This document shows positions 9,959-59,335 of a stretch of DNA of 64,000 nucleotides, in pieces. Positions within the stretch are counted from its first letter, which is position 1; each line of letters begins with the position of its first letter. The DNA comes from Russula earlei (taxonomy: Eukaryota > Basidiomycota > Agaricomycetes > Russulales > Russulaceae): contig JAGFNK010000139.1 in the NCBI GenBank assembly GCA_025769875.1, positions 49,419 to 113,418 of the forward strand, read 5' to 3'. The notes under the pieces are model-generated. The model saw only the letters and a program-made list of their open reading frames with translations, had not been told where the DNA came from and made no database searches. The position numbers and the translations under genes were made by a program.

Positions 9959-9964
9959 TATAAA
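9959..9964 (+). promoter_or_regulatory. TATA box upstream of the small secreted protein gene
   Basis: TATAAA about 180 nt upstream of the ATG at 10,142, in otherwise GC-mixed sequence. The position fits a core promoter with a 5' leader of roughly 150 nt (inference). Confidence 0.5.
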
Positions 9965-10141
9965 GCCAATCCGTGCAGCGACGATTCTCTCCAGCTGTGC
10001 TCGTATTCATTCCCGTTCCAAACTATCCGGTACCGGTTCCCGAGAACCATTCCACATTTCGTACGCCGCCATTTTGCTCATGAATACATTGAGGATTTTG
10101 ACAAACAGTTCAAAAATCCACAATCCTATTCATAAGTTACA

Positions 10142-22704: not shown

Positions 22705-23666
22705 TGTCATGAACCATTCTCCGGAGAGGGCCCTTGAAGGACCCTTCCTTATAGGAGGAAACCTGGTCTCTATGGTGTCACCCTGTTCACACGAGCAAAA
22801 GGGGTGAGTAGAGGTGTCCACAATATCGCGCGCGCATTGTTGCGCGAGCGATTCTCGGCACAATCGACATACAGCAAGCCCCACTTAAAGGCAACCCTTC
22901 TAGCAACAAAAGACAGTATTAGGGCCTTCCTAAGGACCCTTTGGAACGACCCTAGGAGCTCTACAAGAGGCACTAACCTAGTATCAAAGGCCCTACAACG
23001 CGTTATTAGACCAACTCTAATAACTATAGAACGACTATAAGGCAATACTAAGGACCTTAATAGAAGTATTAGGGTCGACTCTAAGGACCCTAATAGAACT
23101 ATATAAGGGCCTTATAAGACGACACTATTCCCTAGCCAAACTACAAGTCTTCAAATGACCGGCCCTAAACTAACTAACAAGAAATGAATCAGGTGCTTAC
23201 ACGTGCACTAAAAGTAGTAAACACGTGGACAGTGGAAACTCTTACTCATCAAGAAGAGTCTTCTTACTCAGCAGCTTACTGAGCATGACCGAGCATGCTC
23301 AGTAAGCATCCTCCGACTTCTTACTCATCACTCTATTGTGCTTGATAACAAGGTTATGACTTGTTCCCTATTTAGCAGTTCTCTTGTAGTATATAAGCGC
23401 TCAATAAAGTAGCGGACAGTCCTCAGACTGTCCATTTGTTTACGGCACTCTCCATCCCTGGGATACTCCTTTAAGGACCGTCCCCTTGTGACCACTCTGG
23501 CCTCTTCCCTGCATGATTGTTCTACTCTCACAGTAACAATACCTCTCTGGTATTTGTTACTACTCTGGACTCTCCTCCTTGCCCACGCTGTCTTGGACGT
23601 CTATCAACTCGTCTTCGAGCTTATCCCTCGCTCTTGAACTGGATAGTTCAACAGTGAGTCTTGACA
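22705..23666 (-). repeat. Solo LTR-2 nested in copia pol
   Basis: A 962-bp LTR (TG...CA) on the minus strand, flanked by a perfect 5-bp target duplication TGTAT (22,700-22,704 and 23,667-23,671). The copia frame on both sides joins across it, so it inserted into an existing copia element and its internal part was then lost by LTR-LTR recombination. Confidence 0.92.
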
Positions 23667-23671
23667 TGTAT

Positions 23672-25972
23672 AGGCTGCTCATCGTCCTCATTTTTAATTG
23701 TAGGGAATGGGTCATCAACACCAGGAATGGTGTCTTCGACAGGTTGTTGCAGTAGTTCCTCACATGGTTCATTAATCCGCGTGGTACCTTTAGTGCGTGC
23801 TTTGTCACATTTGGGGTACAGGGTCTCATCGTACAGGGCGGTAGCATTTGTGTAAAGCATATTATTTGGGAGCCTCATGAAGAGTGAGGCTTTGATCCCC
23901 TCAGTATGACCAAGGTAGATCATTAGCTTGCTTTTAGGCGAAAGCTTGTTGACTTGACACTTTTCTGGTATGTGCACATATGCACAGCAACCAAATACTC
24001 TGAGGTGTGAGATATCAGGGACCTCATTCTTTAGGACTTCGTAGGGTGTACGCCATTGAAGGCGTCTGGCTGGTGTCCTATTGTAACAGTGTGTCCCATG
24101 ATTCACTGCAAATTCCCACCAGGAGGGAGGTAGACAAGCTTCAAGGCGCATTGCCTGAGCTTTGTCCATTACAGTGTGCATAAAGCGCTCTGCGCGTCCA
24201 TTCTGTTGTGGAGTGTATGGGGCACTTTGCAGGATTTTAATTCCTTCGTCCTTTAGGACGTTATCAAAGGCCTTGGACTTGTACTCTCCACCAGCATTGG
24301 ACATCCACTCTCTAATTCCTGCTTTGTATTGGTTTTTGACCATAGCTAGGAATTGCTTGACAGCCATTATGGTCAACTTTTTATTTTTTAGGAGTGTGAT
24401 CCATGCATAGGAGGAATAATCGTCAATGAAGCTGACAAAATATTTGTACTTATGATATGGCTTCACAGGGAAACTCTTAAGGTCCGAGTGAATATGCTCG
24501 AACAGTGCGGAGGCACGAGTTTCAGAAGGGGGGTGCGCAGATGCAGGCATCTTGCCTTGCGCACAGCCAGGACATACCGGATGTTCCTGAGGGATTTTCA
24601 GGTCTTCAGGGAGACCCTTGGTATGTGTCTTTGCACGTGTTATGACATCCTTAGATGGGTGGCCAAGGCATCGGTGAATGACATCATAATCTACTGTGTA
24701 GATAAGAGAATGCGCTTGCGCACTTTCAATAGAGGTGTCTAACCAATACATGGTCTGACCCGGGAATAAGGGGTAAGAGGACAGGATAGTATGTCCGTCC
24801 TCTTGTAGGGAAATATGTCTATTATTCCCTAATGCATGCATCCCTTGTTGTAAAAACTCCCCCATAGATAATATCCGAGTATTAATTTTCGGAATATAAA
24901 GGACAGGAGAAATGCATGTGACAACTGTTTTAGAGTTGACAGTGTGCTGAAGCAACACAGCGCCTTTGCCTTCCACATAGATTGTGTTATCAGCAGTTTT
25001 AACAGGGGATCTTTCGTGTGGCAAAGCCAGTGTATACTCTATAAAGTCTTTTATTTCGAAGGTGAAGTGTGCTGACGTGCCAGAGTCAAGGAGCCATAAG
25101 GATCCCATTTTACTCAAGTCGTGCTTTCCTCTGCATCTCGAACAATTTTTGTTACATTCACTTGGAAGGGAAGTAGTCCCTTCGCTAATTTGTACATTGT
25201 ATGATACAAGCGAACACTTATTAGACATATCTAGCCCGCTTTGGGGCTGGGGAGATGCTAAAAGGTTCTTTAGCGAGTGAAAAGAGAGAGGGAGGCGCAC
25301 GCACGCTTCGTTATCTTCGGGGTCGCTGCCCCAATCAAGTGCTTCATCCGACAGAGTCGGAGCATGCTCAGGGGTGGCAGCACCTTCTGGGATACCATCA
25401 TATATGTCGAATAAATCTGACATATTTGTTTGCGCAAAGTTGCCATCGTCCTGGTTCATAGGCTCAGGGATGGGCAACGGTAGTTTGACTGCACTTGATG
25501 AGGCAGCGGATTGAGTCGAGATCCGCTGCTCAAGGGTCTTGACTGTCTGTATAGTGGGGGTTACCCCAAGATCATCAGCAAGATCAAGCGCTTTGTTTAA
25601 GGCCTTGTAAGGGCCAAGAGTGCGTTTGCGAGGGTCAGTTGCAGTAGGGACGGTACGTTGTTGGATCCCTGAAGGACCCAGATGGGCAATAGTGGTAATG
25701 GTTGGGAATGGGAGTGCAGCAACATCCGCAATATGGGAGTGTCCGGGACCATGGCTGTGATTGGCCTTCTCCTTGCCTTTCCCTTTTCCTTTGCCGCTGC
25801 GCTTACCGCGCTGGCGCTTGTCCTTATCTTCATCGCGCTTGGGCTTATTGCCTTGCTGCTGAGAAGAGAAGGAGGGGTCACCGTGCTTGCGCTTGACAGC
25901 TGAAAGCTTCTGCGCGCTGTGCTTCTTGTTTGTGCCACGATTCATTTCAGTTTGATATTGAGAGACAATAGC
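23672..25972 (-). pseudogene. Copia gag 3' part, protease and integrase (open but interrupted at both ends)
   Basis: The minus-strand frame is open for about 770 codons between the two nested LTRs. It holds a Lys/Gly/Arg-rich gag tail, a protease active-site segment (LWLLDSGTSAHF), the integrase zinc pair (HRCLGHP and CPGCAQGK) and the integrase core (HSDLKSF, then SNAGGEYKS, then QNGRAERFMHT). Copia integrases normally have SDxGGEY for the second catalytic acid; here it is SNAGGEY, so that Asp appears replaced by Asn. The zinc-knuckle CCHC usual in gag is not evident. Both ends run into LTR sequence. Confidence 0.88.
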
Positions 25973-26934
25973 TGTCATGAACCAGTCTCCAGAGAGGGCC
26001 CTTGAAGGACCCTTCCTTATAAGAGGAAACCCAGCCTCTATGGTGTCACCCTGTTCACATGAGCAAAAGGGGTGAGTAGAGGTGTCCACAATATCGTGCG
26101 TGCATTGTTGCATGAGCGATTCTCGGCACAATCGACATACAGCAAGCCCCACTTATTGGCAACCCTTCTAACAATAAAGGACCGTATTAGGGCCCTTCTA
26201 GGGACCCCTTAGGATGACTATAGGTGCTCTACAACGGGTACTAACCTAGTATCAAAGACTCTACAACGTGTTATTAGACCAACTCTAATAACTATAGAAT
26301 GAACTATAAGGCAATACTAAGGACCTTAATAGAAGTATTAGGGTCGACTCTAAGGACCCTAATAGAGCTATATAAGGGCCTTATAAGATAACACTATTCC
26401 CTAACCAAACTACAAGTCCTCAAATGACCGGCCCTAAACTAACTAACAGAAAACGAATCAGGTGCTCACACGTGCACTAGAACAGCAAACACATGGACAA
26501 TGAAAACTCTTACTCATCAGGAAAAGCCTTCTTACTCAGCAGCTTACTGAGCATGACTGAGCATGCTCAGTAAGCACACTCCGACTTCTTACTCAGCACC
26601 CTATTGTGCTTGATAACAAGGTTATGACTTGTTCTCTATTTAGCAGTTCTCTTGTAGTATATAAGCACTCAATAAAGTAGCAGACAGTCCTCAGACTGTC
26701 CATTTGTTTACGGCACTCCCCATCCCTGGGATACTCCTTTAAGGACCGTCCCCTTGTGACTATCCTGGCCTCTTCTCTGCGTGACTGCTCTATGCTCACA
26801 GTAACAGTGCCTCTCTGGTATTTGTTACTACTCTGGACTCTACTCCTTGCCCACGCAGTCTTGGACGTCTATCGACTCGTCTTCGAGCTTATCCCTCGCT
26901 CTTAAACTGGATAGTTCAACAGTGAGTCTTGACA
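25973..26934 (-). repeat. Solo LTR-3 nested in copia gag
   Basis: 962 bp, same family and orientation as LTR-2, with a perfect 5-bp target duplication ATAGC (25,968-25,972 and 26,935-26,939). The gag frame NNVREAIV on one side continues as SQYQTEMN on the other. Confidence 0.92.
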
Positions 26935-27539
26935 ATAGCCTCTCGCACATTGTTCAGATTAAGATCAGTCAGATCATAGTTCTGAGTGATGATGTGGACA
27001 AGCATTTCCCATTTTGGGGGAATGGCAGCAAGCATAATGAGTGCCTGTAAGGCATCAGGAATCATTAGGGAGGATGCGGTGAGACGCTGGAATGCAGCGT
27101 GTATCCAATCAATTTGTGGGCCAGGATGCTGGCTCAGGTTAATGCGAATGGAAATGGCTTCTTTGAAGTCCTTATAGATGCTAGTGGTAGTTGCCATGCC
27201 ATAGAGGGTATCTAGGCAATTCCAAATAGTTTCAGTGTTATCCAAAGATGTACGATCTTGTTGGATCGCGATGCTCAATCTAAGGACCATATGACCAACT
27301 ACCATATTGTTTCCTTTGTTCCATTCTTTTATAGCTGCCTGAGCGACAGCCTGGGCAGCAAGCTCTTCAGGAAGAGGCACCTGAGGAAGTACAGGGATGG
27401 TAGGCAGTTCAAATGTGCCACTGCAATAACCCCACAGTCCAACGGACATGAGGTAGGCTTTCATAGCCTTTGACCAAATACCATAGTTAGCACCATCAAG
27501 GATGGGGACAACAGGGGCAGAGGGTTGAGACGACGACAT
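26935..27539 (-). pseudogene. Copia gag N-terminal part
   Basis: Starts at an ATG 167 nt inside the 5' LTR. It carries the copia gag hallmarks LDGANYGIWSKAMKAYL, IWNCLDTLY and the later NLSQHPGPQIDW. The frame is open for 200 codons until the nested solo LTR-3 cuts it. Confidence 0.88.
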
Positions 27540-27693
27540 TGTAGCTGTTAATAGGGCTTAGAGGTCGTCAGTAAGAGTATTGTATTCAAACAAGCTGACA
27601 TAGTCTCCCCATAGGGTAGACTAACTTGCCGCAGCATGCAGGCTTCAGGGATGCTTCGCCATCGTTGCAGCCGATGAAGGCGCATGGCTTGCA

Positions 27694-27705
27694 GGGCCCA
27701 TAACC
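27694..27705 (-). other. Primer-binding site of half-tRNA (initiator Met) type
   Basis: On the minus strand GGTTATGGGCCC lies directly after the 5' LTR. It is complementary to the anticodon arm of initiator tRNA-Met (GGGCCCAUAACC), not to a tRNA 3' end. Drosophila copia is known to prime from such an internal tRNA-Met fragment, so this element probably does the same (inference). Confidence 0.65.
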
Positions 27706-28090
27706 TGTTGCGCAGCATAGAGCGCAGCTAACAGGCCAAGCAACCCACCTTAGAGGTTGTGCTAATGCTCAAGTGATATTGGGGTGTAGAGCGATGTGTA
27801 TACTTGTCTACAAATATGGTATTTATACCTCTATGACCCAGGGCTGTTCCTAAGTCCAAAAGAGGTGACTACAGGTGTCCACTATATCGCGCACTCAGTG
27901 ATGCGTGATGTGGAAACGTTCTAGATGCAGCATAAGGCTGCATCTTGTGATAGATAGCGTAGTATGCGTAACCCTATTGCCATAAGCGCATATACTAAAG
28001 TTCTGTCTAACACGTAACCCCTATGAGCAGATCTTGAACCTTGTATGAAGGTCTTCGCCTTCTTTGATCCGTTTCAGTTCCGGTTCAACA
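27706..28090 (-). repeat. 5' LTR of the copia element
   Basis: Direct copy of 20,308-20,703, TG...CA. It joins unrelated DNA on its outer side. Confidence 0.9.
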
Positions 28091-28329
28091 GGAACTGCCT
28101 TTTCTGGCACCACACAGTACATCAGTGACTAGAAGTGACTAGAATTACTATATTAGGTCATTTCTAGTACATTCTAGGTGTTTCTAGTAGGATGTAGTTT
28201 TCCTGATGAGGCTATTGGATACAGTACTTTATAGATCAAGAACTGTTGCCTGCCCGGATGCAAACATGCATTGTGGCCTCAAACTTGAAGCCTGGAATGA
28301 TACCTGATTCATTATGTCATTTTCATGTG
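28091..28329. other. Non-coding repeat debris
   Basis: Contains several TTCTAGTA/AGTGACTAGAA motifs in both orientations (28,113-28,195) and a segment at 28,245-28,310 also present at 5,785-5,865. No gene. Confidence 0.5.
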
Positions 28330-28850
28330 ACCTTGCACTTGCCATTTTTGGATGTCATTTCAAGTGCAAAATTAAAACTGCTATATCTCAACAGTTTCTC
28401 AACAAATTGCCTTGAAACTTTGACAATAGAACCTTATATACTGTATCTAGGTGCAGCTAAAATATGGGAGCCTAACATTCAGTTCTTGGCATGTTGAGTT
28501 TCAGGTGCTGACATGAGTGCAAAACTTTGAACTGCCATATCTCAGCTGTTTCTCAATCAATTTACTTGAAACCTTGACAGTGGGATCTCATGTCCTGTAT
28601 CTAGGTGCAGCCCAAGAGTTGGGGTCAAAATTCTTAGCTCTTGAAGTTTTGATTTTTGGGTGTGATCTGAGTGTGAAATTTTGAACTGCCATATCTCAAC
28701 CATTTCTCAATAGATTGTCTTGAAACTTGGACAGTAGAACCTCATATACCATATCTAGGTGCAACTAAAATATGGGAGCCTAATATTCAGTTCATGAAGT
28801 TTTGATTTTTGGGTGCCAGTCTGCATGCAAAATTTTGAATTGCCATTAGT
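28330..28850 (-). repeat. 153-bp tandem repeat array, copy C (inverted, 3+ monomers)
   Basis: Reverse complement of the 495-1,112 array. The anchor CTGTATCTAGGTGCAG occurs at about 28,442 and 28,595 and in diverged form at 28,750, about 153 bp apart. The unique edge sequence (the AAATGACATCCAAAAATGGC region at about 1,070) is also shared, so this is an inverted copy of the same larger unit. Confidence 0.85.
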
Positions 28851-29518
28851 GCTGTCACTGGTCCAGCTCAAAACTGCTTGGAGCCTGTTGAAGATAGATG
28901 CAGTGTGTGTGATTAGATAGCAGCAGATGATAAGATCACAGGCAGATCTATCAGACAATAGTTCAGTTTGGTTGACACAAAACTGATATAAATAATGTAC
29001 CTATCAGACAATAGCTACAACATGTCATCAGTACTGTGAGATAAGATATCATAGTGTAAATACTCACTTCAGTTTGGTTGACACAAAACTGAAGTGATCT
29101 ACGTACTTTGTGGCGTTCTTAAGTACCCAAGACCACCACTGGATGCAGTACAGTTAACTACCATCATGGATCACTAAGTAAGTCCGAGGATCAGTTTAGC
29201 TACCAATTGTCCTAAATCACTCTATCAGTGTAACTAATGCATGCTGTAGCATATGAGCTGAGCTGGTGATGCCCGGTCCGGGTGATCCAACGCATCAACA
29301 CATCCAAGTTGTGATCATATCACAACACACCTGAGACTCTGGGCAGTGCAGATCTCAACAGAGCCAAGCTGTAGCTGCATCTGAGCCAAATTAAGCTGTT
29401 AGCAGCTTGCAGCTTGAAACCATCCAGAAATGGCATGAGCCATTTTGACAGGTGCTGATGGAAAGGAAAATTACTAAAGGACGCATCGGTCCTGTACCAG
29501 AGTTGTTTCTCGTGAATT
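28851..29518. other. Intergenic with a short perfect hairpin
   Basis: No gene. A perfect stem of 11 bp (CACTTCAGTTT paired with AAACTGAAGTG) around a short loop lies at about 29,065-29,096. Its loop and inner stem recur at about 28,965-28,988. Confidence 0.5.
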
Positions 29519-31028
29519 TCACCAGTCTTCCCAAGGGTAGATGGTCACAGGGTGACCAGAGAGTTGTCGCGCGGCGACGAACCGCTCAATGAATTTCGGA
29601 ACAGATCCAAATGGTTCGAGGCCGCTCAAGAAAATGTTCTGTAGCGCAGGTAACGCTTCTGTTATTCTTTCGCCCGCGAACTTTTCGAGCGCTTGGAGGA
29701 CATTTGGTGCGACTTGATCAGATAGGCGCAGAACCTTCACGGAAGTGAACGGTTCCAGGACTTCCAGCCATTGAGTCGTTTCCATTTCATCCTTCCAGTA
29801 CGATTGTGGACTTGGAGGAACGGGATCCACGACGTCAAGCTGTACCAAGGTGGAGAGGAGGAGCAAGGATGGGTTGCAGACTTGGGCCAGCGATGAAAGC
29901 TGATAATCCAACTCTCCGCAACTGATTACCAAGGACAGCCCCGGAGTTGTGCGTGTCTCTCCGAAGACTGAAAATCGGATTTTGCGATCGGAAATGTGTA
30001 CGGTCGCTCTGTTGCACGCCTTGAACCGTTCTGCGTGACTGATGAACCGGCAAAGGTGTGGGACGACGAAGTCGAGGTCCATGAAGAATCTTATCTCGAG
30101 TTTGTCAAGACGGGGAGCCTCGATTTGGGCCAGCAAGTCCTCCAGGTACTCGTGAACGCCTTGGAACGCAAGACGGGTGAGGGCGGGGAGGACAGAGCGT
30201 GTGAGCGGAGGTCGAGGTCGATTTGCCGGATCGGGGCGAGATCGAGGGGATTGGAATTCAACGCGAAGGGCTTCGATTCCGGACATGACCGACAAGGCGG
30301 CGACCAAAGCCTGGGGCGAAATGTGACCGGAATCGGGAATGTTCCAAAGGGAAAGGACGACAAGTTGACCGGCAGACAAGACAAGAGCAGTTTCGGCGCT
30401 CCCGGAAACGGACAGTTGTCCAACCAGAGGCGTCGCAAAAGAGGAGCTGATCCGCCCAAGAACGAATCGGGGAGGGTCGTCGCCGTGCGTTCGTCCAGAA
30501 GAAAAAAATGTACAGAAACGTCAGCGCTGGGAACGGTCTCCGCAACGCTGCTGCCAATCTTTCCCAATGTGATGCCGAAAGCCGGATCAACTCAATCTCA
30601 CATATGCGATGGCGATGCTCCGACTCGAGGGCAGCGGCTACGTTTCCACACCAGCGGTCGAGGTGTAATTTGGAGGATGGATATGTCGTGAGACTAATCA
30701 CCAACGGCAAGACTGGCCAGACGTCCAGCACATCAGAGATGGGTCTTTTCCCTGTGTACACGAGTCGCAGGTTCAGGCGACGTGGGGACGCAAACACGAT
30801 ATATCGCCATGTTTGACACACATGGACCAGTGTATGCCACCCGCTTGTCCCTATGCGCCAGTCATTCACATAGAAACAGAATGTTTCCACGAGGACCTCA
30901 TTTGGAAGCGTGTTGATTGTGATCCGGTCTATAATCGATTGGTCGGTACTGTCATGGACGTTGCGCAAAAGATACATACCCCGGCGATGACTTCCTTTCA
31001 ACAAGCCCTCATAGGGCCCACCAATCAT
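29519..31028 (-). pseudogene. F-box-like protein, frameshifted paralogue A
   Basis: Tandem paralogue of the intact gene at 31,623-33,086. The N-terminal part is open (from ATG 31,028 or 30,977) and contains the F-box-like segment NTLPNEVLVETFCFYVNDW and WHTLVHVCQTWRYIVF. Two frame changes follow. One lies at an A7 homopolymer (T run in coding sense) near 30,505-30,512. The other is near 30,385, where CTTGT is present twice, a 5-bp insertion relative to the paralogue. The C-terminal 286 codons are open in the third frame and end in the conserved YPWEDW. F-box proteins of this type recruit substrates to SCF ubiquitin ligases; this copy is probably inactive unless the shifts are sequence errors. 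Confidence 0.75.
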
Positions 31029-41631: not shown

Positions 41632-41704
41632 TGGTTCAATCCGGGATCGAACCGGAGACCTTCTGTGTGTAAGACAGAAATCATAACCACTAGACCATTG
41701 AACC
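41632..41704 (-). tRNA. tRNA-Val (anticodon UAC)
   Basis: 73 nt without intron. The acceptor stem GGTTCAA pairs with TTGAACC and the discriminator base is A. The anticodon stem TCTGT/ACAGA encloses CTTACAC, placing TAC at positions 34-36. The T arm contains GGTTCGATCC (B box) and the D arm TGGTCTAGTGG (A box). The CCA end is not encoded, as usual in eukaryotes. It decodes GUA valine codons. Confidence 0.95.
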
Positions 41705-48773: not shown

Positions 48774-49583
48774 TCACATACCATATTTCCGTTTTATCGC
48801 TGCCCATCCTGGCGCAGCCGCACCGACCACATCGACGAACCGATCCATGTCGTGCTCGGGGATGCGATTAACGTCGATGCTGTTCCAATATCGACAGAGT
48901 ATGAACACAATGTCTTGCGCGTCGCGTTCAGAGCCTCGACTAATGACATCAAACGGTGGTCAGCTGTGAGTGGGGGTGGGCGGGTGACCCGGGACATACA
49001 TCATCCATGCGTTTAGTTTTGCCCTCACGAATTCGGAAGTGGTCAGGAATGGCACTCGGCTCACGGCCGCCACCGTGAGCGCATCGAGGCGCCTCGGGCC
49101 AGATTCTCCCGCCGCCAGGATTTCAACCTTGAGAGAAAGGGGTGTGAGCCCGAGCCCCCAGCCGCTGCAGACAAACGGGGGCAGGTACCTCTATTGGAGG
49201 GATACAGCGGTGGTATTTTACGTGCAGCCTAACGCAAGGTTGAGCTCCCGCAGGCGACGGCAAGTGCATTAAACTGTACCGGTTACTCCAGGGCGAGGGT
49301 GTGATGGACAGGTCCGCGTTCCCGGTCAGTGCCTGCCTGACACGACGAAACGGGTGGGCGGTCCCGCCTTCGACGATGCAAAAAATTTCCTGCGCGGTGA
49401 TGAGGTCACAAAAGACGGTTCGTCCGAGATACGGGGACGACGCGGAGGTCTTACGTCGGCCTGCGGGCTGTTGGTGAGCACGGCGACGAAGAGGCTGCCG
49501 TGGAAAGCGTGGGGAACGCCGTGTGCTCGAAGGGCGTGAGAGAGGACACTGGCCGCTTCCAAGAGTCGACGCGTCTCAGGCAT
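48774..49583 (-). pseudogene. Nucleotidyltransferase-fold-like gene with one apparent frameshift (5 exons)
   Basis: Minus-strand exons: 49,583-49,455, 49,390-49,280, 49,228-49,189, 49,127-49,000 and 48,939-48,774. The coding pattern is clear: VLSHALRAHGVPHAFHGSLF, CIVEGG and HPFRRVRQAL, ITPSPWSNR, PPIEVEILAAGE, LTTSEFVRAKL, RDAQDIVFILCRYW and a final AAIKRKYGM. The exons add up to 574 nt; removing one base gives 191 codons. The extra base lies at a T7 run at the start of exon 2 (about 49,380-49,387), where the frame must shift by one to read the conserved part. GSLF followed by strand-like hydrophobic and acidic residues resembles nucleotidyltransferase-fold proteins of basidiomycetes (low confidence). 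The gene may be intact if the homopolymer length is a sequencing error. Intron 3 ends in AAG. Confidence 0.65.
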
Positions 49584-50148
49584 TGCGGGGAAAGGGGTAA
49601 GCTGATTCCCGGTCGCGAGTCATGATATGAGATATTGGGCAGGAGGGGTGGATAGCGCCAAGCGCCCACACTCTATCGAGAAAAGGCCCCGGAACGGACG
49701 GCCACGGTGAATCAAGGCGCTGCCTTGGGCGAGGCCGTGGAAAAAAACAAAAACAAAAGCAAGCAAGCCAAACGGAAATTTCTCTCCAGTCGAGATTGCC
49801 GGAGCGGACTGTCCCGAATGGTGGAGGCTTGTACACGTATCAAAGTCGAGACGCCCCTCATACGTCGGGTCGACCGGTGGTCACATGTCGGTCGACGCAC
49901 GGCTATGTCGAAAGGTTAATTTCGCTCACCCGTCGTGCGCGGTGCGGGCTGCGGGCGTGCCTGGAAAGATCAGCATGGGACCAAAGGGATCGCGTATTTC
50001 CGCGAATCGGCATGAGATCGCGTCTCGTAAACTCGATGTCCCGGCGTTGTGTGGGGTGCTGTCCGGTTGTGGTCACAGGCCATCACATGACTCCCCCCAG
50101 CGCCTCCTCCCTTCGCCTCCCCACCCCTTCCCTTCGCCCCGTCCCCCC
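49584..50148. promoter_or_regulatory. Divergent promoter region of the NTase-like gene and MRS2
   Basis: No gene. CT-rich in the last 60 nt before the MRS2 ATG, as common in basidiomycete promoters. Inferred from position. Confidence 0.4.
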
Positions 50149-50841
50149 ATGGGACTTTCTGCTGCTGCCTTATGCATATCCAATAGCCTCAACCTCACCT
50201 CGCGTCCCGTCTTGTACGGCAGCGCCGGTCATGCCTTTCGATCATATGCATCCACCTCCACTTCCGCAAGGCCACCATGGCGTCATGCCCCATCACTCTC
50301 ACCGTCATCGCCTTTGTCCCAACAGCGCATGCGGACATCCCCAATCGGCGGCACATCCCGTGGCCTTCCCACCGTTCGCGCGGTGTCGTGGGCCGCAAAG
50401 TTTAATCTTCGACCGTCTCCCGGTTTCCTGAACGACTCGGATGCACACGCACACGAGGAAGCCGCCAAAGATGGCGTGCTGGAGGCGATCAAGGGCCGCC
50501 AGCAGACGGACCTCATGTTGCGCTGTGAGTCAACCGCCCGCCCGTCCGTCGCATTGCCGTTTCGCAAACTCGCTCACTTGTATTTTTTTTTTTTTTTTCA
50601 TCTCCACATAGGCACCATTCTTGATGCAGACGGTACGCCATCCGATCATACATTCATTTCCTTCCCCCCCCCCCTCGTCGTCGCCCTTTCCTTGGCGTGT
50701 CCATCATGCGTGGGGCTTGATGAGCTCGCATTTTATGGCGCTTCGCGTCAATAATAACGAACGTGCCTCGCGTTCTTTTACGCACTTTGTTGTGCGTGAA
50801 TACGCAAGGCTGGCGCGGGAACACACGTCTTCCCCACCCTT

Positions 50842-50878
<37 letters not shown>

Positions 50879-53800
50879 CCGAATTTGTATTCCGCAGCGC
50901 GTACATCATGATACAGAGGCGGTCACGGGCATAGTAAGCGACGTAATGTGATTAGGAGTTATGGTTCTTGAGTTGTCCGCTGGGGCGGTATGACAGCGTT
51001 AGAGTGTAGTGTGTGGTGGTCTGTGGTGGTGATTAAGTGGGGTGTCTCTGCGCTTCCCGGTTCTCCCTCAACCCTCCTGGGTCCCAGTTTTCCCTCGGTT
51101 TTAGGCATGCCTTGGTTTCTATTAGAAAGGAGAGCGTGCTCTGTGCCCGATCTGGGTGGTCGAACAGCTGGGCTAAATTTCGTGGGCGGCCATTCGTGGA
51201 CAAGTGTCTGCGGCGCGCGTCGTGGTATTGTGGGCATGTCAGGAGCACGTGCTCAACTGTTTGGAGGGGTTCGCCGCATGGGCACGCGACCTGTGCGGGT
51301 GTGTGCCTTGTGTGGAATCGCTGAGTATACTCCCCGGTGAACGCATGACCTGTGATGAATCGGTAGAAGGTGGATGTGAATTGTCTGGGGAACTTATCGT
51401 GTTGCCCTGTGTTGTTGTTCCTGTTGTTTCCATTGTTGTGAGTTCCTGCGTTGGTGCATTTTGTCCGTTTTTGGGCGACTGCTGTGGGGTGTGGTTTTCC
51501 ATTCGGCGGTTTAGTGAGAGCTGTGCGGTATGCGAGTGAGGTGCGGGGCAACTGGTGCCAGCTCCTTTCCCATTCCGCTATTGCGTCCGCGTTGTGCTTT
51601 CTCTTTTGTTCGTCTAGGGATAGAGGTTCTGTTAGGTTTTCAGTGCGCGCCATGCGCGCCGTTTCTAGGGCTAGTCGTCTGGCTTCTCGGGCTCCGGGTG
51701 GTTTGTCATTCCTAGATGTCCAAAGCAGACTTATGTTCGTTTGGGGGTGGGTGTTAAGGATCTCACCTATTTGTTTTAAGTGGCATAGAGCTATCGCTTG
51801 TTCATCATGAGGTTTGTGGCTGATGGCTAGTTCTGCGGCCGCACGTGTTGGTAGGAAGATGTGGGCGTTTGTGGGTGTGATGGTCGTCCGTGTGTCGAGG
51901 TATTCCGCTAGGGCTTCGAGGCCGGTCGTTAGCGAGCGGAGGTGTGTGCCCTCGACTGTTACTGTTGTTCCGATTACCTGTTCTTTGCGTCCTAGTATCC
52001 TCTCGGTTTTGTATAGTACTGCCGTTGCCACTCCAAGTTGCTTGTTGTCTGTTCGTCCTTTGTTTGTTTTGACACCACTGCAGTAGATGGTGATGCGGTC
52101 TTCTGCTTGGCGTGGTTCCGTTACCTTTCCCATGCTAACGCGTCCGTCCCAATCTGGGGCGCCGGGTGGGAGATTGGGGAAGTGTTCTATGCGTGGGCTG
52201 TTCGCGTTCGTTCGGTTTGCTAGCGAGCTCAGGGTGGTTTTTGCTCTGTGGCTGTTTGGTGATGGTAGTGCTGCGTCGTGGCTTGGTTGGGTATCCCAGG
52301 CACCTCCTAGTCTCCTTCGTAGTTGACTACCGGTCATGGTGCGGTGGAGTCTCACTGCTGCGTTGTTGGTTAGTTTGTTAAGTTGTATGCGCATGGGCAG
52401 GATAGTTAGTAGTTGGTGGAGGGGGTCTCTCGGGGTAGTGCGGAAGGCCCCTGCTATTATCTTTACCGCTTCGTTCTGGACGACTTGCAGTTTCTTGACT
52501 AGACCGATTTGTTTACCTGTGTACCATAGCTGGTGGCCGTATGTTAGTGTTGGGAGGCAGATGGCGAGGTATACCTGTCTCCATTTTGCTTGTTCGAGGC
52601 CTCTGACGGAGTTACCAAGCAGTTGAAGGGCTTTCAGCGACGCTCTTGCTCTGTTACACATGTACTCGACATGACGTTTCCAGGTGAGGCGTGAGTCGAA
52701 GAAGAAACCGAGGTACCTGATCGTGTCAGTCGCTTTCACTCGGTAGTATGTGTTGTGTGATGGGAGCGGGAGGTGTATGTAGTTGGGTGGGTTCGCGCAT
52801 TCCCTCTGTTTTCTGAAGAAGAGCACTTCTGTTTTTTCGGGTTCAGCGTTGAGTCCCGCTTTGTTTAGCCATTTAGCGCATTCGGAGTATCCCAGTCGGA
52901 GTGCTGACTCTACGGACGTCCAGTCTCGGTTGCACGCAAAGATGGCCCCATCGTCGATATACATGGCTAAGGCGGTTTGGTTCCAGGCTTTTGCCTTGTG
53001 AAGTAGGGGGGAGGTGTAGAGTATGGAAAGTACTGGTGAGGCGGGGGAGCCTTGCGGCGTACCTGCTTCCAGATCAAAGGGGTCTGAGGCACGCCCGTTG
53101 AATCTCAGGCGGACTTTCCTGTTTGTCAGAAAGGAGTCACACCATTTTACTATCTCTGGGGCGAAGCCAAGGTTCTCAACCACTTGGGTTAGTCTCCGGT
53201 GGTTTATGTTGTCAAAGAACCCTTGGATGTCGAACAACAGGAGCCCACATTTGAGTCCCATTTGTTGTGCCGCTTGTATGTCGTGTAAGAGTGTGAGTCC
53301 CGCGTCTATTGTTGATGATGCGTTTCTCCCTCCAAATTGCGTCGTGGGGACTATTTTGTGTCTGGCCATGTCCTGATAGATGATCCTCGCCACGATTTTC
53401 TCCAGGAGCTTACCTAGACATTCGAGTAGTGCTATTGGGCGGAAGTTCTTAGCCAGTGTGTAGTCGGCTCTGTTTGGTTTGGGTATAACGCAGACTAGTG
53501 CCTCCTTCCAGACACTTGGATGGTGTCCGGCTTTAAGGCAATTTACCAGGAGACCCAGTAGCTTTTCCGGGTTCGCTTCCCATGCCCACTTTATCATGGT
53601 CCAGGAGTGGCCCGAAGGGCCTGGTGCAGAGCGTCCAGATACTTTCTGGAGGAGGTCAGTTATTAGTTGTTTGTGAATCGTTGGGAGTTCGCGTTGAGGG
53701 AGTGGGACTGGGTCGTCTGGGAAGTGTGGTTCCGCTTCCTGTCGTTCCCCGGCGAAAAAGCGCTGTGAAAGAGTGTCAGCTATTTCTTCGTGTGAGTTGG

Positions 53801-56800
53801 CAAAACCTTCTGGTCCTCGGAGTGGGGGAACCTTAGTGGTTTTGCGTCCGTGTCTCCAGGTGGCGACTTCCCATAGTTGGGCTTTGTCGATGTAGTCGTT
53901 GGCCCACTGTCGTTTCGCTGCTTGTACAGTGGATTTTAGTCGTTTGTGCGCTCTTTTCCGTTCTTCTGGGTTTGGGGCCTCTTTGAGTGCCTGTACGGCC
54001 CATTTGCACTCCGCATCCCACCAGGGTGCGGCATGGTGGTTGTGAGGGTGTCTAGGCTTGAGAGTGTCAGCGTTTGTCTGTTGGATGTCAGTCATGTATC
54101 TATCCACTTCTTCGTCTAGTTTCTCAGCGGTTGGGTGTGACGAGAGGGTCCAGGTTTCGCATCTCTCCTTGAAGGTTTTGATCCACGGTTCCTTTTGCTC
54201 TGGGTCCACTACGTATCTTAAGTCAGGGTTGTTCACTGTGGGCGCTGTGTCGGGAGTGTCGGGAGTGGTGGGGTTTCCTGTGAGCCGGAGCATGGCATGG
54301 TCTGAGCCGAGGGAGCCGGGCCAGTCAATCTTGAATCCGCTGAAGGTGGCACGTCTTACCGCTGCCATGTTGAACCAGGCGAGGTCTATTGTTGAGTCCC
54401 TTTCGTGAGCTGCTCCTCTGCGCGTGATCTCTCCGGGCGTGTTGGCTAGAGTAAGGAGGTTGGTTGCGGCCCAGTCCTCTATGCGGTTGGCCCAGTACGA
54501 TTTGGGGTTTTCTGGTGGTGACCAGGTTGGGGAATGGGTGTTAAAATCCCCTATTATCAAAGTCGGGGTGGTCGGGTCGATGTCTAGTGAGGTTAGTGTT
54601 GCTAGAGCGGTGGCGTCTCTGATGTCGTGATAGTAGTTGATCACTCGCCAAGTTTCGTTGTCTAGCACAACGTCCACTACCTGTACACATGGATGTTTGC
54701 AGACGTCCATTCTTGTTACTGTTGTGAAGCTGGGGTCCAATTTGTCCGGTTGAGGTTTTCTCGCATAAGACATTACCTTGGGTTTTTGTCCGTCGTCAAG
54801 CCCTGGGTAGAGGAGCTCCCATGCTGGGGAGGCTGCCCCTCCCATCACGTCAACGCCGTCTCGGGCATTGTCTTTTCGTGCTGTTCCTATCCTGTCGTAC
54901 CAAGGTTCCTGTATAAATAGTAAGTTAATTTCTGTGGCGCTATTCAAAAGTGCGTGGGTAACTGCGTTGCGCTTGCGCATGTTCACCGACGCTATATGTA
55001 GCGTTGGGTGTGCCATCATGGGGAAAGGTTGGGCTGGGCAGCGCTGCCTTGTGGGCGCGAGGGGGAGTGATGTGAGACGGCTGGGCCTTCATGACCTTGA
55101 CTGAATGTAGTGTTGTGTATAGTGGGGGCGGTTGGCTCTGGTGCGCGGCGTGATGGGCCGGGCGTGGGGGGGCCAAACTGGATGGACTTCTTTTTGGGTG
55201 TGAGCCCTGGCGTATCTGCCCTGGCTGGGGATTGGGGTTGAGACTGCATTCGATAGGCCGGGCCTGGGTCAGGGTTAAAGGTGTTGGCCTCTGCGAGGTC
55301 AAGTGCCGTATCCATGTCATCCTCGTTATCATAGTTAGGTATACTTTCCGCCCATTCACGGTACTCTTCTTCCCCGGTTTCAGGGTTAGTTTCTTTTCCC
55401 TTACCTTTGTTCTTTGCACGTATCGCCTTTCGTGGGGCCCTTGGTCTATAGCCTTCCCTGGCTGGGCAGGTTTCATCTCTGCAGTGGTGCCCGGTCATTC
55501 GGCAATTGAGGCATTTAAAGTGCGTACAGTCGCAGATGCCTGCGATCGTATGTTTCTTGGGGCACTTTTGGTCGTGCTCCTCGGATGTGTGGCCCGCCCC
55601 GCATATGTAACACCTCACTGAGTCTTTGCCCAACGGGCACGCCACAGATCTTTTTGTGTGTCCCAGGGCGTGGCACTTCGAGCACTGGACTAGGGCAGGT
55701 TTGTCAATCCACTTACTGATTGAGACCTCCTTGCCGAAGAGAGCAGTGCGTCCTTTAAGGAGCGTATTTGTTACCGATCCGCCTGGGTCAGAAATAGCAA
55801 ATGTGAGAGTGGAGTATGGCCCGTTTATGCGTTCGATAGGCTTAAGCCATCTCGGCTGCATGGAGAAGTGGGCTTTCATCAGCCCTGGGAGCAATTTTAC
55901 CTCGTCATGTAGCTCGTCTGGTCGGAAGAGGATGCCATCGTTGTCTTTGACCGGAACGCCGTGTGCAAGGAAGCGAGTCCAGCCCATGGCGGGGCATAGC
56001 TGGCCCATTCCTTGGAAGGGTTGGAGGAGGAATGCCTCGTACGACATGATGTGGTCGAAGGCAATGGATCCCTCGAAAGAGAAGACGAAGTTACCTTTGC
56101 TTCGTGGGTGCACACTCCACCTACCTGCTTTTAAGGGAATGGGTTTGGCTACCGCCTTGCTCATACGGAGGCGGACCTCCCTGACTATGGCATCTGCGGC
56201 CCTTGCACGTATGTTCTGCTCCACTATTTTGTCACCAAAGCCTCCGGAGCGCAAGACCGTTACTTCTGTGATGGTCGGTGCGCTGTGGCGTTTGGGTTTT
56301 TGTCCAGTGGGCTGACCTGGGTTGTTAGCTGCAGCCGCTGCCACCGTAGCATATGCTGCTGGGGTGATGATAGACATATCTAGTGCTGAATCAGCGGGGG
56401 TTGTACCCTTGTTCGTGCTTTTGGTCTTCCTCTGGTAAGAGACTCGGGTGAAGGCCGTTTCCGGCTTGTCTGTGCAGGTGGCCACAGCTGGGGGGCGGGG
56501 GTCGCGGGCGGTGTTGGCTAGCGGTGGGTGCATGGGCGGCACCCTCTGTCTGGTGTTTGTGTTGGTGAGTGGTTCACGTTGTGACTCACCTGTGATCGTG
56601 TTCTGTGGTGGGGGCATTGATAGCCTTTCCAGCGCTTCTAGGCGCGCTGCAAAGGGAGCCATGGCTCTCGTGACAGCTTGAGTGATCGCGTCAGCGTCTT
56701 GGAGCCTGCTGTCCTGTGGTTCAGTTAGTGGTCCGGGGTAAGTTTTACCTTTAGGGTTGGGTGTCGGGGATGGTTCCGCCCGCCTGGTGTTGGGGCGAGG

Positions 56801-59335
56801 AGTGGTGGGGGAGCGTGCCGTGTCTCGTCCCCTCGGTGTGCGGAGGGGGGAGCGCGTATTATTTGCGCCATGTGGGTGTGCTGGCTGTGGAGGTTGGGTA
56901 AGGGCAGAGGGCGGGACAGACCCAGATATGGTCCGCTTGCTACCTGCCTTAGGTGTCATTGGTGGTTTGCCTGTGGTGGCTTGCGCAGGGAGAGTGAGTC
57001 CCATCCCTTCGGCTGACTGCAGAAAATAAGTGAGATTTCTGTTTCTCGCGGCAGCGGCGATGTCTGATTCTTGCGCTGCTGCCCTTTGTTCCAACTGTCG
57101 TTCCTTCCATAGTCTCCACGTCTCTTCCACTTCCACTGTAGCCTTCTTGGCAGCCTTTTTCCGGTATTCCTCCAGGATGGTGGCGTGCTCATCATGATAG
57201 TCTGTGAGGTTTCCGGTGAGGTGGGTTGCTAAAAGGTTGGTGATGTTTGTCAGTTTGTGGAAGAATGTGGGAAGGTTCGGTGCTAGGGGTGTTGGGTCAA
57301 TGGACCCCGCGATGGCATCTTTCACTGCCGTTTCTCCAAAGTTGCTGATTGTTTGGAGGAAGCCTCGACCAATGGCGTTCACTAAGTGGGAGCATAGGTC
57401 GGCCCATTCTGAGGCATCCAGAGCACCTGTGGCGGTCGTGTGAAGGAAGCCCTTTTGGATGATATTAAGATACTCAGGGGTGTATGAGAGGATACCACGG
57501 GGTATCGCTCCTGCATTTTCAACTGGAGCACTAGGTCTCGGGTTTGGTGAGTTGGTTGTGTCTCCCTTCTCAGTCGGGGTGATCACTGGGTTTTTTGGGT
57601 TGTCCCCTTCTAGCGGATAAGCTTTCCCTGGGTCGGGTGGCTTTTCCGGGGGGGGTTGGGGGGTTTTTGGCATGGGGTTAGGGTTAGGAGGTGATGGTGG
57701 TAACAGACTGAGATCCATCGTTCCCCACCCTTTCGCCTCGATTGTGTCGTTGTCGCTTACGTGCTCGACCTTCGTCAGGGAACGTAAAAACGATCTCGGG
57801 CCAGTTCAAGAGGTCTGATTTGTGTACAGAACACCGTCTCAACGTAAGCACGCCTCCCCTGGTGTGTGCACGCTTCCACTCAGCTGACCTTTGGCGCCCT
57901 CGAAAGCCACGAGATCTACGCAAAATCGATTCCAGGATCCCGAACCTCGTTCCCACCATCCTTCCTCGGCGCGAAGCCATCCTTGTACATCCTTTTTCGC
58001 GCCCCCATGCTCCCATTGGCCGATCGTTGTCTAATTTCTTTCATGGTCAGGTAAATGTGCTGCACATACGAGCGCTCGTCAAAGCAGATGCCGTGGTTTT
58101 GTTCGACACTTACGGATCCACCGACTCTCGGCTGCATTCTGTGTTCCTGTACAATCTAGAAGTTTGTTCACCTGCTCTCCGACAACGTCGTCGTATTATT
58201 AACGTGTTTCATTTTCAGCATAACCTCAAGACAACGACTTATGGCCTGCCGTACGAATTTCGGTAAGTGGCGTCGTCACAAGGTTAATCCGGCTTTCGCT
58301 CAAAAGTGAACCTTTCCAGCGCGTTGGAATCGATATTCATCTCCGTCGTGAGCGCCCTGGAAGCCGAGATGGTGTTGATCCGAAATATCGTCGGCGGGTT
58401 GCTCGCAGAGCTCGAGGACGACATCAACCATGACAAATTCAAACACCTGTTGCACTACTCACGACGACTCACAAGCTTTCAGAATCGTGCGAAATTGGTT
58501 GGCATTCTCCTTTTCCGCACTCCCTCGGACTGGTGTTGATGTTCTTGGGAACAGGTCCAGGCAGCCTTTGAGGAGGTCTTGGAGCAAGGTAGTTCGACTC
58601 CTCTCTTAACTCTGACCGGAGCTCATGAGTATTTGTGTTTGTGAATAGACGAAGACTTGGCTGCGATGTATTTGTCTGACAGGAAAAATGCCGTCCGTCG
58701 TCAGCTCAGTGATCACGAGGAGCTGGAACTACTCTTGGAAACATTCTCGAAGCAAGTCGAGGAGATAGCGAACGAAGCTGAAATTACTCACGTTCGTGGT
58801 GCCTTGAAACCAAGACGCGTTCATTGACGCACGTGTCTCGACTAGGGAAATGTCCAGTCGACCCAAGAGATAGTCGAGCTCATACTTGACTCGAATCGGA
58901 ACGCTTTGCTAGCTCTTGACTTGAAGGTAACGAAATTAGATGACTTTTGTCTGTGAATGTTACCCCCGTTTCGTAGGTGTCGATTGGCACCATGGGAATT
59001 GGAACGGGGGCTCTCATTGCAGGGTTGTTCGGTATGAATGTGAGCCACATCCTCCGTCCTCCCCCTGCGCACTCGCCTTCTCACTGTCCATCAGCTTGTG
59101 AGCCACATGGAAGACCATCCGTACGCCTTTATGGGGATGTCTGTTGTATCGACCGTCCTGGCATTTTTGGTTGCATGGGGCGGTCTTCGAAGGTTCGCTC
59201 TCTGATATCGCCCGTGTCCCCGCTGATCCGACCCCCTCAAGACTGGCAAAAATTCAAAAGGTTGGCCTCTCTGAGGGCAGGAGAAGCGCCCGTGGACTAC
59301 CGCTGCCCGTGCACCAAAAGCCGCGGGACAACTGA
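50149..59335 (+). CDS. MRS2: Mitochondrial magnesium channel Mrs2 (13 exons, 461 aa) with a LINE in intron 2
   Basis: CorA-type Mg2+ channel of the inner mitochondrial membrane. Exons: 50,149-50,524, 50,612-50,632, 57,779-57,843, 57,907-57,984, 58,051-58,161, 58,219-58,262, 58,320-58,497, 58,555-58,588, 58,649-58,791, 58,846-58,926, 58,977-59,039, 59,095-59,192 and 59,242-59,335, together 462 codons in frame. The N-terminus is a mitochondrial presequence (Ser/Arg-rich, no acidic residues). Landmarks: LNPRDLRKIDSRIPNLVPTI, VLHIRALVKADAVVLFDTYG, RLHSVFLYNLE, YGLPYEFRALE, GLLAELEDDI, GTGALIAGLFGMN with the family GMN motif between the two membrane helices, and HPYAFMGMSVVSTVLAFLV. Introns 3 and 12 appear to use AAG acceptors. 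Intron 2 is 7,146 nt because a retrotransposon lies in it antisense. Exon 2 is 21 nt. Confidence 0.93.
50830..50843. repeat. 14-bp target-site duplication, left copy
   Basis: TTCCCCACCCTTTC, identical to 57,721-57,734, directly outside the poly(T) that represents the LINE poly(A) tail. Confidence 0.95.
51033..55019 (-). CDS. LINE ORF2: endonuclease, reverse transcriptase, RNase-H-like (1,328 aa)
   Basis: Carries out target-primed reverse transcription. Domains in order: an AP-like endonuclease (about residues 5-245, with FIQEPW at 35-40, IIGDFN at 155-160 and SDHAM at 239-243); a linker; reverse transcriptase (about 500-780) with FRPIALLECLGKLLEKI, LLLFDIQGFFDNI (Asp 597), GTPQGSPASPVLS and the catalytic box YIDD (687-690) in place of the more common YADD. 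An RNase-H-like region follows at about 970-1,120; the expected first catalytic Asp (YxDGS) reads YCSGV, so its activity is doubtful. Last comes a Cys/His segment (CPCGEPLQTVEHVLLTCP). It starts at an ATG overlapping the ORF1 stop (ATGA), suggesting termination-reinitiation. Confidence 0.95.
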   Translation of the reverse strand: MMAHPTLHIASVNMRKRNAVTHALLNSATEINLLFIQEPWYDRIGTARKDNARDGVDVMGGAASPAWELLYPGLDDGQKPKVMSYARKPQPDKLDPSFTTVTRMDVCKHPCVQVVDVVLDNETWRVINYYHDIRDATALATLTSLDIDPTTPTLIIGDFNTHSPTWSPPENPKSYWANRIEDWAATNLLTLANTPGEITRRGAAHERDSTIDLAWFNMAAVRRATFSGFKIDWPGSLGSDHAMLRLTGNPTTPDTPDTAPTVNNPDLRYVVDPEQKEPWIKTFKERCETWTLSSHPTAEKLDEEVDRYMTDIQQTNADTLKPRHPHNHHAAPWWDAECKWAVQALKEAPNPEERKRAHKRLKSTVQAAKRQWANDYIDKAQLWEVATWRHGRKTTKVPPLRGPEGFANSHEEIADTLSQRFFAGERQEAEPHFPDDPVPLPQRELPTIHKQLITDLLQKVSGRSAPGPSGHSWTMIKWAWEANPEKLLGLLVNCLKAGHHPSVWKEALVCVIPKPNRADYTLAKNFRPIALLECLGKLLEKIVARIIYQDMARHKIVPTTQFGGRNASSTIDAGLTLLHDIQAAQQMGLKCGLLLFDIQGFFDNINHRRLTQVVENLGFAPEIVKWCDSFLTNRKVRLRFNGRASDPFDLEAGTPQGSPASPVLSILYTSPLLHKAKAWNQTALAMYIDDGAIFACNRDWTSVESALRLGYSECAKWLNKAGLNAEPEKTEVLFFRKQRECANPPNYIHLPLPSHNTYYRVKATDTIRYLGFFFDSRLTWKRHVEYMCNRARASLKALQLLGNSVRGLEQAKWRQVYLAICLPTLTYGHQLWYTGKQIGLVKKLQVVQNEAVKIIAGAFRTTPRDPLHQLLTILPMRIQLNKLTNNAAVRLHRTMTGSQLRRRLGGAWDTQPSHDAALPSPNSHRAKTTLSSLANRTNANSPRIEHFPNLPPGAPDWDGRVSMGKVTEPRQAEDRITIYCSGVKTNKGRTDNKQLGVATAVLYKTERILGRKEQVIGTTVTVEGTHLRSLTTGLEALAEYLDTRTTITPTNAHIFLPTRAAAELAISHKPHDEQAIALCHLKQIGEILNTHPQTNISLLWTSRNDKPPGAREARRLALETARMARTENLTEPLSLDEQKRKHNADAIAEWERSWHQLPRTSLAYRTALTKPPNGKPHPTAVAQKRTKCTNAGTHNNGNNRNNNTGQHDKFPRQFTSTFYRFITGHAFTGEYTQRFHTRHTPAQVACPCGEPLQTVEHVLLTCPQYHDARRRHLSTNGRPRNLAQLFDHPDRAQSTLSFLIETKACLKPRENWDPGGLRENREAQRHPT
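55016..57718 (-). CDS. LINE ORF1: RNA-binding gag-like protein (900 aa)
   Basis: Packages the element RNA. The N-terminal 330 residues are Pro/Thr-rich with helical parts (LWKERQLEQRAAAQESD). The central part (about 480-680) has a compact domain ending in SISKWIDKPALVQCSKC. Then come CCHC-type zinc knuckles (CSKCHALGHTKRSVAC, CYICGAGHTSEEHDQKC and CLNCRMTGHHC), followed by a basic segment and a Pro/Ser-rich tail. One open frame; the stop shares four bases with the ORF2 start. I do not see a 5' leader beyond two bases. Confidence 0.93.
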   Translation of the reverse strand: MDLSLLPPSPPNPNPMPKTPQPPPEKPPDPGKAYPLEGDNPKNPVITPTEKGDTTNSPNPRPSAPVENAGAIPRGILSYTPEYLNIIQKGFLHTTATGALDASEWADLCSHLVNAIGRGFLQTISNFGETAVKDAIAGSIDPTPLAPNLPTFFHKLTNITNLLATHLTGNLTDYHDEHATILEEYRKKAAKKATVEVEETWRLWKERQLEQRAAAQESDIAAAARNRNLTYFLQSAEGMGLTLPAQATTGKPPMTPKAGSKRTISGSVPPSALTQPPQPAHPHGANNTRSPLRTPRGRDTARSPTTPRPNTRRAEPSPTPNPKGKTYPGPLTEPQDSRLQDADAITQAVTRAMAPFAARLEALERLSMPPPQNTITGESQREPLTNTNTRQRVPPMHPPLANTARDPRPPAVATCTDKPETAFTRVSYQRKTKSTNKGTTPADSALDMSIITPAAYATVAAAAANNPGQPTGQKPKRHSAPTITEVTVLRSGGFGDKIVEQNIRARAADAIVREVRLRMSKAVAKPIPLKAGRWSVHPRSKGNFVFSFEGSIAFDHIMSYEAFLLQPFQGMGQLCPAMGWTRFLAHGVPVKDNDGILFRPDELHDEVKLLPGLMKAHFSMQPRWLKPIERINGPYSTLTFAISDPGGSVTNTLLKGRTALFGKEVSISKWIDKPALVQCSKCHALGHTKRSVACPLGKDSVRCYICGAGHTSEEHDQKCPKKHTIAGICDCTHFKCLNCRMTGHHCRDETCPAREGYRPRAPRKAIRAKNKGKGKETNPETGEEEYREWAESIPNYDNEDDMDTALDLAEANTFNPDPGPAYRMQSQPQSPARADTPGLTPKKKSIQFGPPTPGPSRRAPEPTAPTIHNTTFSQGHEGPAVSHHSPSRPQGSAAQPNLSP
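57721..57734. repeat. 14-bp target-site duplication, right copy
   Basis: Identical to 50,830-50,843; directly outside the 5' end of the LINE. Confidence 0.95.

Follow-up and report, generated by a model that had tools for sequence, protein, structure and literature searches.

A full-length LINE was found in antisense orientation within intron 2 of MRS2, the mitochondrial magnesium channel gene of the mushroom Russula earlei, and the MRS2 exons on both sides of the element joined in a single reading frame. In our preferred reading, which is held at about even confidence, the insertion allele is most likely hypomorphic to null, with exon 2 being mostly trapped by the LINE. New here is the split of MRS2 in the public annotation: antisense LINE sequence forms the end of one gene model and the start of the other, and a young transposable element coincides with a conserved gene split into two chimeric models. 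The window (the whole stretch of DNA analysed, 64,000 nt) is part of contig C139 (113,418 bp) in an assembly of 66.6 Mb and 1,374 contigs, and positions refer to the window unless a contig is named.

Results

Structure and identity of MRS2

MRS2 extended from 50,149 to 59,335, and its 13 exons encoded 461 aa plus a stop, i.e. 462 codons. The exons were defined by spliced translation, and exon 2 also by homology:

50,149-50,524, plus strand: exon 1, starting with ATG at 50,149
50,612-50,632, plus strand: exon 2, a 21-nt microexon (TILDAD)
57,779-57,843, plus strand: exon 3
57,907-57,984, plus strand: exon 4
58,051-58,161, plus strand: exon 5
58,219-58,262, plus strand: exon 6
58,320-58,497, plus strand: exon 7
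58,555-58,588, plus strand: exon 8
58,649-58,791, plus strand: exon 9
58,846-58,926, plus strand: exon 10
58,977-59,039, plus strand: exon 11, with the GMN motif (residues 396-398)
59,095-59,192, plus strand: exon 12
59,242-59,335, plus strand: exon 13, including the stop and ending at 59,335

The joint between exons 2 and 3 (GCA GAC G/GG AAC GTA) kept the frame and read ADG/NVKTISG. The original prediction, that MRS2 exons flank the element and join in frame over 462 codons, was therefore borne out, and the junction was judged to be correct because of homology across it. The Mrs2 chains 8q8p and 8q8q aligned over the junction without a gap (8q8p with residues 116-441; E=2.8e-88), and the exon-2 residues were in register in 8 of 13 aligned database rows. 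The other five rows were the R. earlei record itself and four relatives (P0006, P0011, P0013, and P0018, from Russula, Lactifluus, and Lactarius), in whose models the 21-nt exon appears to have been missed or replaced.

Both the MRS2-like domain (PF22099; 315.9 bits on P0007, which is the MRS2 protein from exon 3 onward) and the GMN motif, by which an MRS2/CorA channel is recognized, were present. Residues 1-95 contained 10 R/K and no acidic residue. Mitochondrial presequences have such a basic, acid-free composition, and the N-terminus may be regarded as presequence-like from composition only. Elsewhere in the window, a tRNA-Val (TAC) gene was located at 41,632-41,704 on the minus strand.

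The LINE and its insertion site

The following features were assigned within intron 2:

50,633-57,778, plus strand: MRS2 intron 2 at present, 7,146 nt, GTACGC...TCGTCAG (sequence)
50,830-50,843, no strand: left copy of the target-site duplication (TSD), TTCCCCACCCTTTC (exact 14-bp repeat)
50,844-57,720, minus strand: LINE, full-length, antisense to MRS2, 6,877 nt (ORFs, domains, TSD, and tail)
50,844-50,878, minus strand: A35 tail of the LINE, T35 on the plus strand and U35 in the MRS2 pre-mRNA (sequence)
51,033-55,019, minus strand: LINE ORF2, 1,328 aa, with Exo_endo_phos_2 endonuclease, reverse transcriptase, RNase H-like region, and C-terminal CxC...H...C (profile matches)
55,016-57,718, minus strand: LINE ORF1, 900 aa, with zinc knuckle matches (profile matches)
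57,721-57,734, no strand: right copy of the TSD (exact 14-bp repeat)
57,721-57,778, plus strand: final 58 nt of the original intron, unaltered, with a branch-point-like CTTAC motif starting 23 nt before exon 3 (sequence)

A LINE antisense in intron 2 had been predicted, and this assignment was confirmed by the 6,877-nt element on the minus strand with its A35 tail and exact 14-bp TSD. The TGA of ORF1 overlapped the ATG of ORF2 (ATGATG), and the 3' part of the element (189 nt) terminated in A35. The reverse transcriptase of ORF2 (RVT_1; E=3.3e-32) carried a catalytic YxDD-type motif, MYIDDG, at residue 686, and L1 ORF2p and R2 chains were among nine structure matches. The endonuclease was of the APE type: 45.9 bits with Exo_endo_phos_2 (cut-off, 27.4) and 23.9 bits with Exo_endo_phos, slightly below the cut-off of 24.5. 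No long terminal repeats (LTRs) were among the repeats listed for the window. The combination of reverse transcriptase, APE-type endonuclease, A tail, and variable TSD without LTRs, together with the 5'-truncation of some copies (C327), identified the element as a LINE; fungal LINE clades named in the available parts of two papers are Tad, Inkcap, and Deceiver (PMC3411680, PMC9674265). The RNase H-like region (ORF2 residues 976-1,123) lacked the catalytic acids, which distant relatives such as P0209 and P0214 retain.

Exact matches to TTCCCCACCCTTTC were found twice in the window, both at the element ends, and a third site had one mismatch. When 200,000 position pairs were drawn at random at the spacing of the LINE ends, possibly with the real site among them, 7 had a duplication of at least 10 nt. 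When the LINE and one TSD copy were subtracted, 255 nt of intron remained, in agreement with the proposed growth from 255 to 7,146 nt. The remaining 11 MRS2 introns were 49-87 nt in length (median, 57), and the 125-fold ratio of intron 2 to this median accords with the roughly hundredfold excess over the usual intron size that had been claimed.

From the TSD and A tail, we infer target-primed reverse transcription, by which the LINE would have been inserted at full length and in antisense orientation 58 nt upstream of exon 3. The TSD preserved the final 58 nt of the intron, including CTTAC, and the insertion left the native 5' splice site untouched. At the sequence level, intron 2 retained the GT-AG ends, the branch-point-like motif, and the reading frame expected of a functional intron.

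Related copies and age of the insertion

The LINE had at least 57 matches in its own genome (best 31 of 185 candidates scored). Copies on C34, C313, C327, C271, and C589 were 95-100% identical, each at another target site; compared over 6,412 nt, the window copy and that on C327 differed by 1 substitution, and over 6,842 nt the window copy and that on C34 differed by 3 substitutions plus 2 indels. One difference corresponds roughly to 8,000-80,000 years at an assumed rate of 1e-9 to 1e-8 per site and year. Judged by these comparisons, the insertion in MRS2 is young and the LINE family is recently mobile.

Among the six near-identical copies (window, C34, C313, C327, C271, and C589), both ORFs were open only in the window copy. 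ORF2 was open in the copy on C34, with ORF1 broken, and in the 5'-truncated copy on C327; the ORFs on C313, C271, and C589 were broken. On C153, a copy of lower identity (74%) likewise contained two long open reading frames (921 and 1,337 codons). Derived C-to-T changes (on either strand) fell at CpG in 45 of 50 cases on C313, 139 of 170 on C271, and 169 of 196 on C589, and in 1 of 6 in the window copy. The observed/expected ratios of CpG were 0.61, 0.45, and 0.44 on C313, C271, and C589, respectively, 0.774 in the window copy, and 0.771 on C34; that of host DNA at 40-50 kb was 1.13. The decay of the older copies looks like deamination of methylated CpG. RIP was rejected as its source because the changes fall at CpG. 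As to their surroundings, in the stretch C327:17,998-27,407 the C327 copy adjoined opposite-strand pieces of a GH18 (chitinase-like) gene, one above and one below the Pfam cut-off, and the C271 copy adjoined a retrotransposon integrase.

The 5' end of the LINE lineage

Twelve copies reached the 5' end of the LINE, and nine of them were testable for a TSD (C1163, C35, and C352 were left out, their 3' end being outside the sequence examined or not recognized). In seven of the nine (window, C34, C313, C589, C153, C366, and C1246), the TSD, in some cases with one mismatch, was followed by 1-2 nt and then by the ATG of ORF1; these copies had no 5' leader (57,660-57,734 in the window). At the start of the C313 copy, the script extended the repeat, with a mismatch, over the two bases of the leader; read plainly, the copy has a 13-nt TSD followed by CG. 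The C271 copy had 11 extra bases, and no TSD was found for C54. Since the copies on C153, C366, and C1246 were only 72-81% identical to the window LINE, the missing leader is a property of the lineage, raising the question of where the promoter is located in this LINE family.

The first 48 nt of the LINE contain CCTAACCCTAACCCC, and their third codon positions were unusually conserved. Among five diverged copies, third positions were invariant in 11 of the first 16 ORF1 codons, compared with 14/48 at nt 51-200, 179/779 at nt 300-2,700 (Fisher p=1.6e-4 for the first 16 codons against this region), and 299/1,248 in ORF2. When all positions were counted, the first 48-nt interval (35/48 invariant) was in the top five of 132 such intervals and was not the highest. 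A start signal or internal promoter may lie within the first ~48 nt of ORF1. No HDV-like ribozyme or other Rfam family was found at the LINE 5' end (57,000-57,800), where one sub-threshold snoRNA match was obtained.

A 60-nt in-frame stretch of ORF1, GT...AG in C271 and C589, at LINE sense nt ~207 (~57,514 in the window), was precisely missing in the window, C34, and C313 copies, and occurred without the GT in more distant copies. The gap could stem from a spliced LINE transcript.

Public gene models of MRS2

In the public R. earlei annotation, MRS2 is split into two proteins of 143 and 338 aa (P0241 and P0007, respectively), both with antisense LINE sequence. Mapping of the models to the window gave two LINE-derived pieces:

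50,917-50,951, plus strand: terminal coding piece of P0241, (E)AVTGIVSDVM and stop, with acceptor AG at 50,915-50,916
57,672-57,699, plus strand: first exon of P0007 (MGLGLGGDG), with donor GTAACA at 57,700

P0241 (hypothetical protein F5148DRAFT_1285632) showed 100% identity over 92% of the N-terminal query, and consists of MRS2 exons 1-2 followed by EAVTGIVSDVM, encoded by the plus strand of the LINE 3' end; its last intron (284 nt) spans the T35 tract and ends at acceptor 50,916. P0007 showed 100% identity over 71% of MRS2, and its first exon, from the plus strand of the LINE 5' end, is connected to exon 3 via a 79-nt intron (57,700-57,778). On present evidence, neither of the public entries is the whole Mrs2. 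They may be either gene-prediction artefacts or a picture of the transcripts of the cell, and chimeras of this kind, seen in these two gene models only, are expected from an exon trap and from an annotation artefact alike.

Splice sites in the enlarged intron

Acceptors were scored with a matrix built from the other 11 MRS2 introns (range, 5.3-10.9), which is blind to a long pyrimidine tract and does not include the native sites of intron 2. The native acceptor and donor of this intron scored 7.3 and 7.4, respectively, and were ordinary and intact. Counting the true donor and acceptor themselves, 4 of the 728 GTs and 9 of the 407 AGs of intron 2 scored at least as high as the true sites. The U35 tract and the AGs following it lie 212-326 nt downstream of exon 2, and the true acceptor ~6.9 kb further. 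Among the cryptic acceptors there, 50,955 scored 5.9, within the range of the 11 introns, and 50,897 (3.6) and 50,916 (-0.3) were below it; the 60 nt preceding 50,897 were 87% pyrimidines. Since 50,916 and 50,897 fell short of the matrix minimum of 5.3, a trap would need either 50,955 or the long tract. All of the 16 AGs tested between 50,724 and 51,087 gave products of 133-254 aa that stopped before exon 3 (134-149 aa for the seven AGs at 50,897-50,958), and retention of intron 2 gave a product of 172 aa.

A spliceosome accustomed to short introns would mostly join exon 2 to LINE-derived acceptors, or retain the intron, and either outcome would truncate Mrs2 before the channel domain. A minority of MRS2 transcripts may be correctly spliced, and the damaged allele would be tolerated via this residual splicing or via a second, empty allele. 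The damaged allele is favored because of the cryptic-acceptor analysis and the precedents of Alu and L1. P0241, which uses a LINE acceptor, and P0007, which starts in the LINE, are evidence for the trap; on the other hand, both models may come from ab initio prediction alone, and the repression of long U tracts, the stronger interference of sense L1, and the antisense bias of LINEs near mammalian exons also speak against the trap. The open MRS2 frame is uninformative as to whether the gene has functioned since the insertion, too little time having passed for decay.

Search for a second MRS2 or an empty allele

A complete MRS2 elsewhere, together with a missing exon 2-exon 3 junction, would have spoken against the original prediction. 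No second MRS2 was found in the assembly by a protein search or by a search for the MRS2-like family, both of which found only MRS2 itself. When the CorA family was searched for, two stretches on C151 were listed but not MRS2 itself; a paralogue that has diverged could likewise go undetected. An empty allele was not found either: the flanking DNA (2.8 and 2.3 kb) matched only the MRS2 locus at full length (all candidates scored, 1/1 and 8/8, respectively). When haplotigs were sought with two 9-kb pieces of the window, the matches were dominated by repeats (best 39 of 1,726 and 27 of 4,554 candidates scored), and one of the pieces was without its own place among the matches listed. The window is repeat-rich at 1,000-10,000 and 22,000-31,000, with many elements 80-99% identical elsewhere in the genome; upstream of MRS2, in the left flank, two short stretches at 49,543-49,781 match a small repeat that is dispersed over at least six contigs.

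Discussion

The structural claims of the original prediction hold, and its interpretation, concerning whether the gene still functions, was narrowed by the sequence rather than settled, the public models ending and beginning inside the LINE. The strongest competitor of the trap is that exon 2 is spliced to exon 3 across the LINE well enough for full-length Mrs2 to be made, the public split being an artefact, e.g. of an intron-length limit in gene prediction. The unaltered donor and last 58 nt including CTTAC are consistent with this, as are the few sites (4/728 GTs and 9/407 AGs) that reach true-site scores and the more frequent antisense orientation of LINEs near mammalian exons (available part of PMC3088655); furthermore, as a conserved gene with no second copy found, MRS2 presumably has to retain some function. 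However, the intron is 125 times the local median and is preceded by a 21-nt exon, and eight internal cryptic acceptors match the score of the true one; we consider correct splicing to be possible, at clearly less than even confidence. Another reading is that of a null allele in one nucleus of a dikaryon, with Mrs2 coming wholly from an empty allele that was collapsed in the assembly. It overlaps with both the preferred reading and correct splicing, and the confidences are not exclusive. A very recent insertion is likely to be polymorphic, and the assembly has a single haplotype at the MRS2 locus, but no second allele was found in its 66.6 Mb, and we hold this reading at slightly less confidence than correct splicing.

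The 5' end of the LINE may also act on MRS2 itself, as an antisense promoter from which a short Mrs2 (P0007, 338 aa) is produced with a LINE first exon. P0007 has exactly such a structure and keeps the MRS2-like domain, and it would be without the arginine-rich, presequence-like N-terminus (the 10 R/K and no acidic residue of residues 1-95), so that this protein would probably not be imported into mitochondria. Predictors can invent first exons, however, and that of P0007 encodes only ~9 low-complexity residues; little credence is given to this promoter. Doubtful, at somewhat better standing, is a combined reading in which transcription of the LINE begins 1-2 nt ahead of the AUG of ORF1, the first ~48 nt doubling as promoter or start signal, and in which the one copy of the youngest subfamily found with both ORFs open, having hardly any CpG decay, shelters in the intron of a needed gene, which is spliced across 7.1 kb and whose host tolerates it. 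Its low rating was reduced slightly further because the C34 copy is equally without CpG decay (0.771 vs 0.774), and youth alone may explain the low decay. Finally, near-identical LINE copies in the genome could have led to the misjoining of a LINE-containing stretch into MRS2. Against this, the exact 14-bp TSD abuts either end of the LINE, the A-tail length is unlike that of the other copies, and those copies have other TSDs. Since a misjoin would not be expected to yield a TSD at both element ends, an assembly break, which would have overturned the prediction, is unlikely, and none was seen: the sequence was continuous through 50,844 and 57,720. A misjoin is scarcely credible.

Returning to the trap, this reading predicts specific junctions. 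The MRS2 case is a natural experiment on how far a short-intron spliceosome stretches, in a conserved gene and with a 21-nt exon before the insertion. No paper on the R. earlei genome was found in the literature searched, and no record is claimed for the length of intron 2 since the literature consulted on the longest fungal introns, including PMC11649378, settled none.

Comparison with known systems

Insertions of LINEs antisense within introns are a known type of event, and the Russula case is a precise, young, and full-length example from a mushroom gene in which the median length of the remaining introns is 57 nt. The comparisons below draw on the available parts of the papers cited. In human introns, the poly(A) of antisense Alu elements is read as U tracts and promotes cryptic splice sites, and long pure U tracts can be repressed by hnRNP C (PMC3629564). 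The arrangement in the MRS2 pre-mRNA, a U35 tract followed by AGs, is like that known from antisense Alu exonization. In contrast to the Alu case, the Russula element, known here from DNA alone, is a LINE of 6.9 kb whose two ORFs are open, the other introns of the host gene measure 49-87 nt, and the trap would lie directly behind a 21-nt exon.

Intronic L1 elements are associated with intron retention and exonization, and sense L1 interfered more than antisense L1 in human minigene tests (PMC3192792). The MRS2 insertion resembles the L1s of this survey in being a full-length LINE within an intron of a host gene, with possible interference with splicing; the 50 L1s surveyed were in tandem (sense) with the gene, whereas the Russula LINE is antisense among otherwise tiny introns. 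In mammalian introns, full-length elements show depletion in the vicinity of exons, most of all at the acceptor side, and LINEs near exons show an antisense bias (PMC3088655); the Russula LINE lies 58 nt from its acceptor.

Among agaricomycete elements, MarorLINE-5/6/7 (Inkcap, Tad1) of Marasmius oreades are likewise recently mobile LINEs with variable 5' length, but the main text of that paper does not contain the word intron (PMC9674265). The 60-nt gap in ORF1 recalls SpIREs (spliced integrated retrotransposed elements) of human L1, in that one subfamily lacks a precisely bounded GT...AG segment near the 5' end (PMC5860796). Unlike in SpIREs, the Russula deletion is in frame and inside ORF1, the lineage kept moving, and an origin by splicing is only possible.
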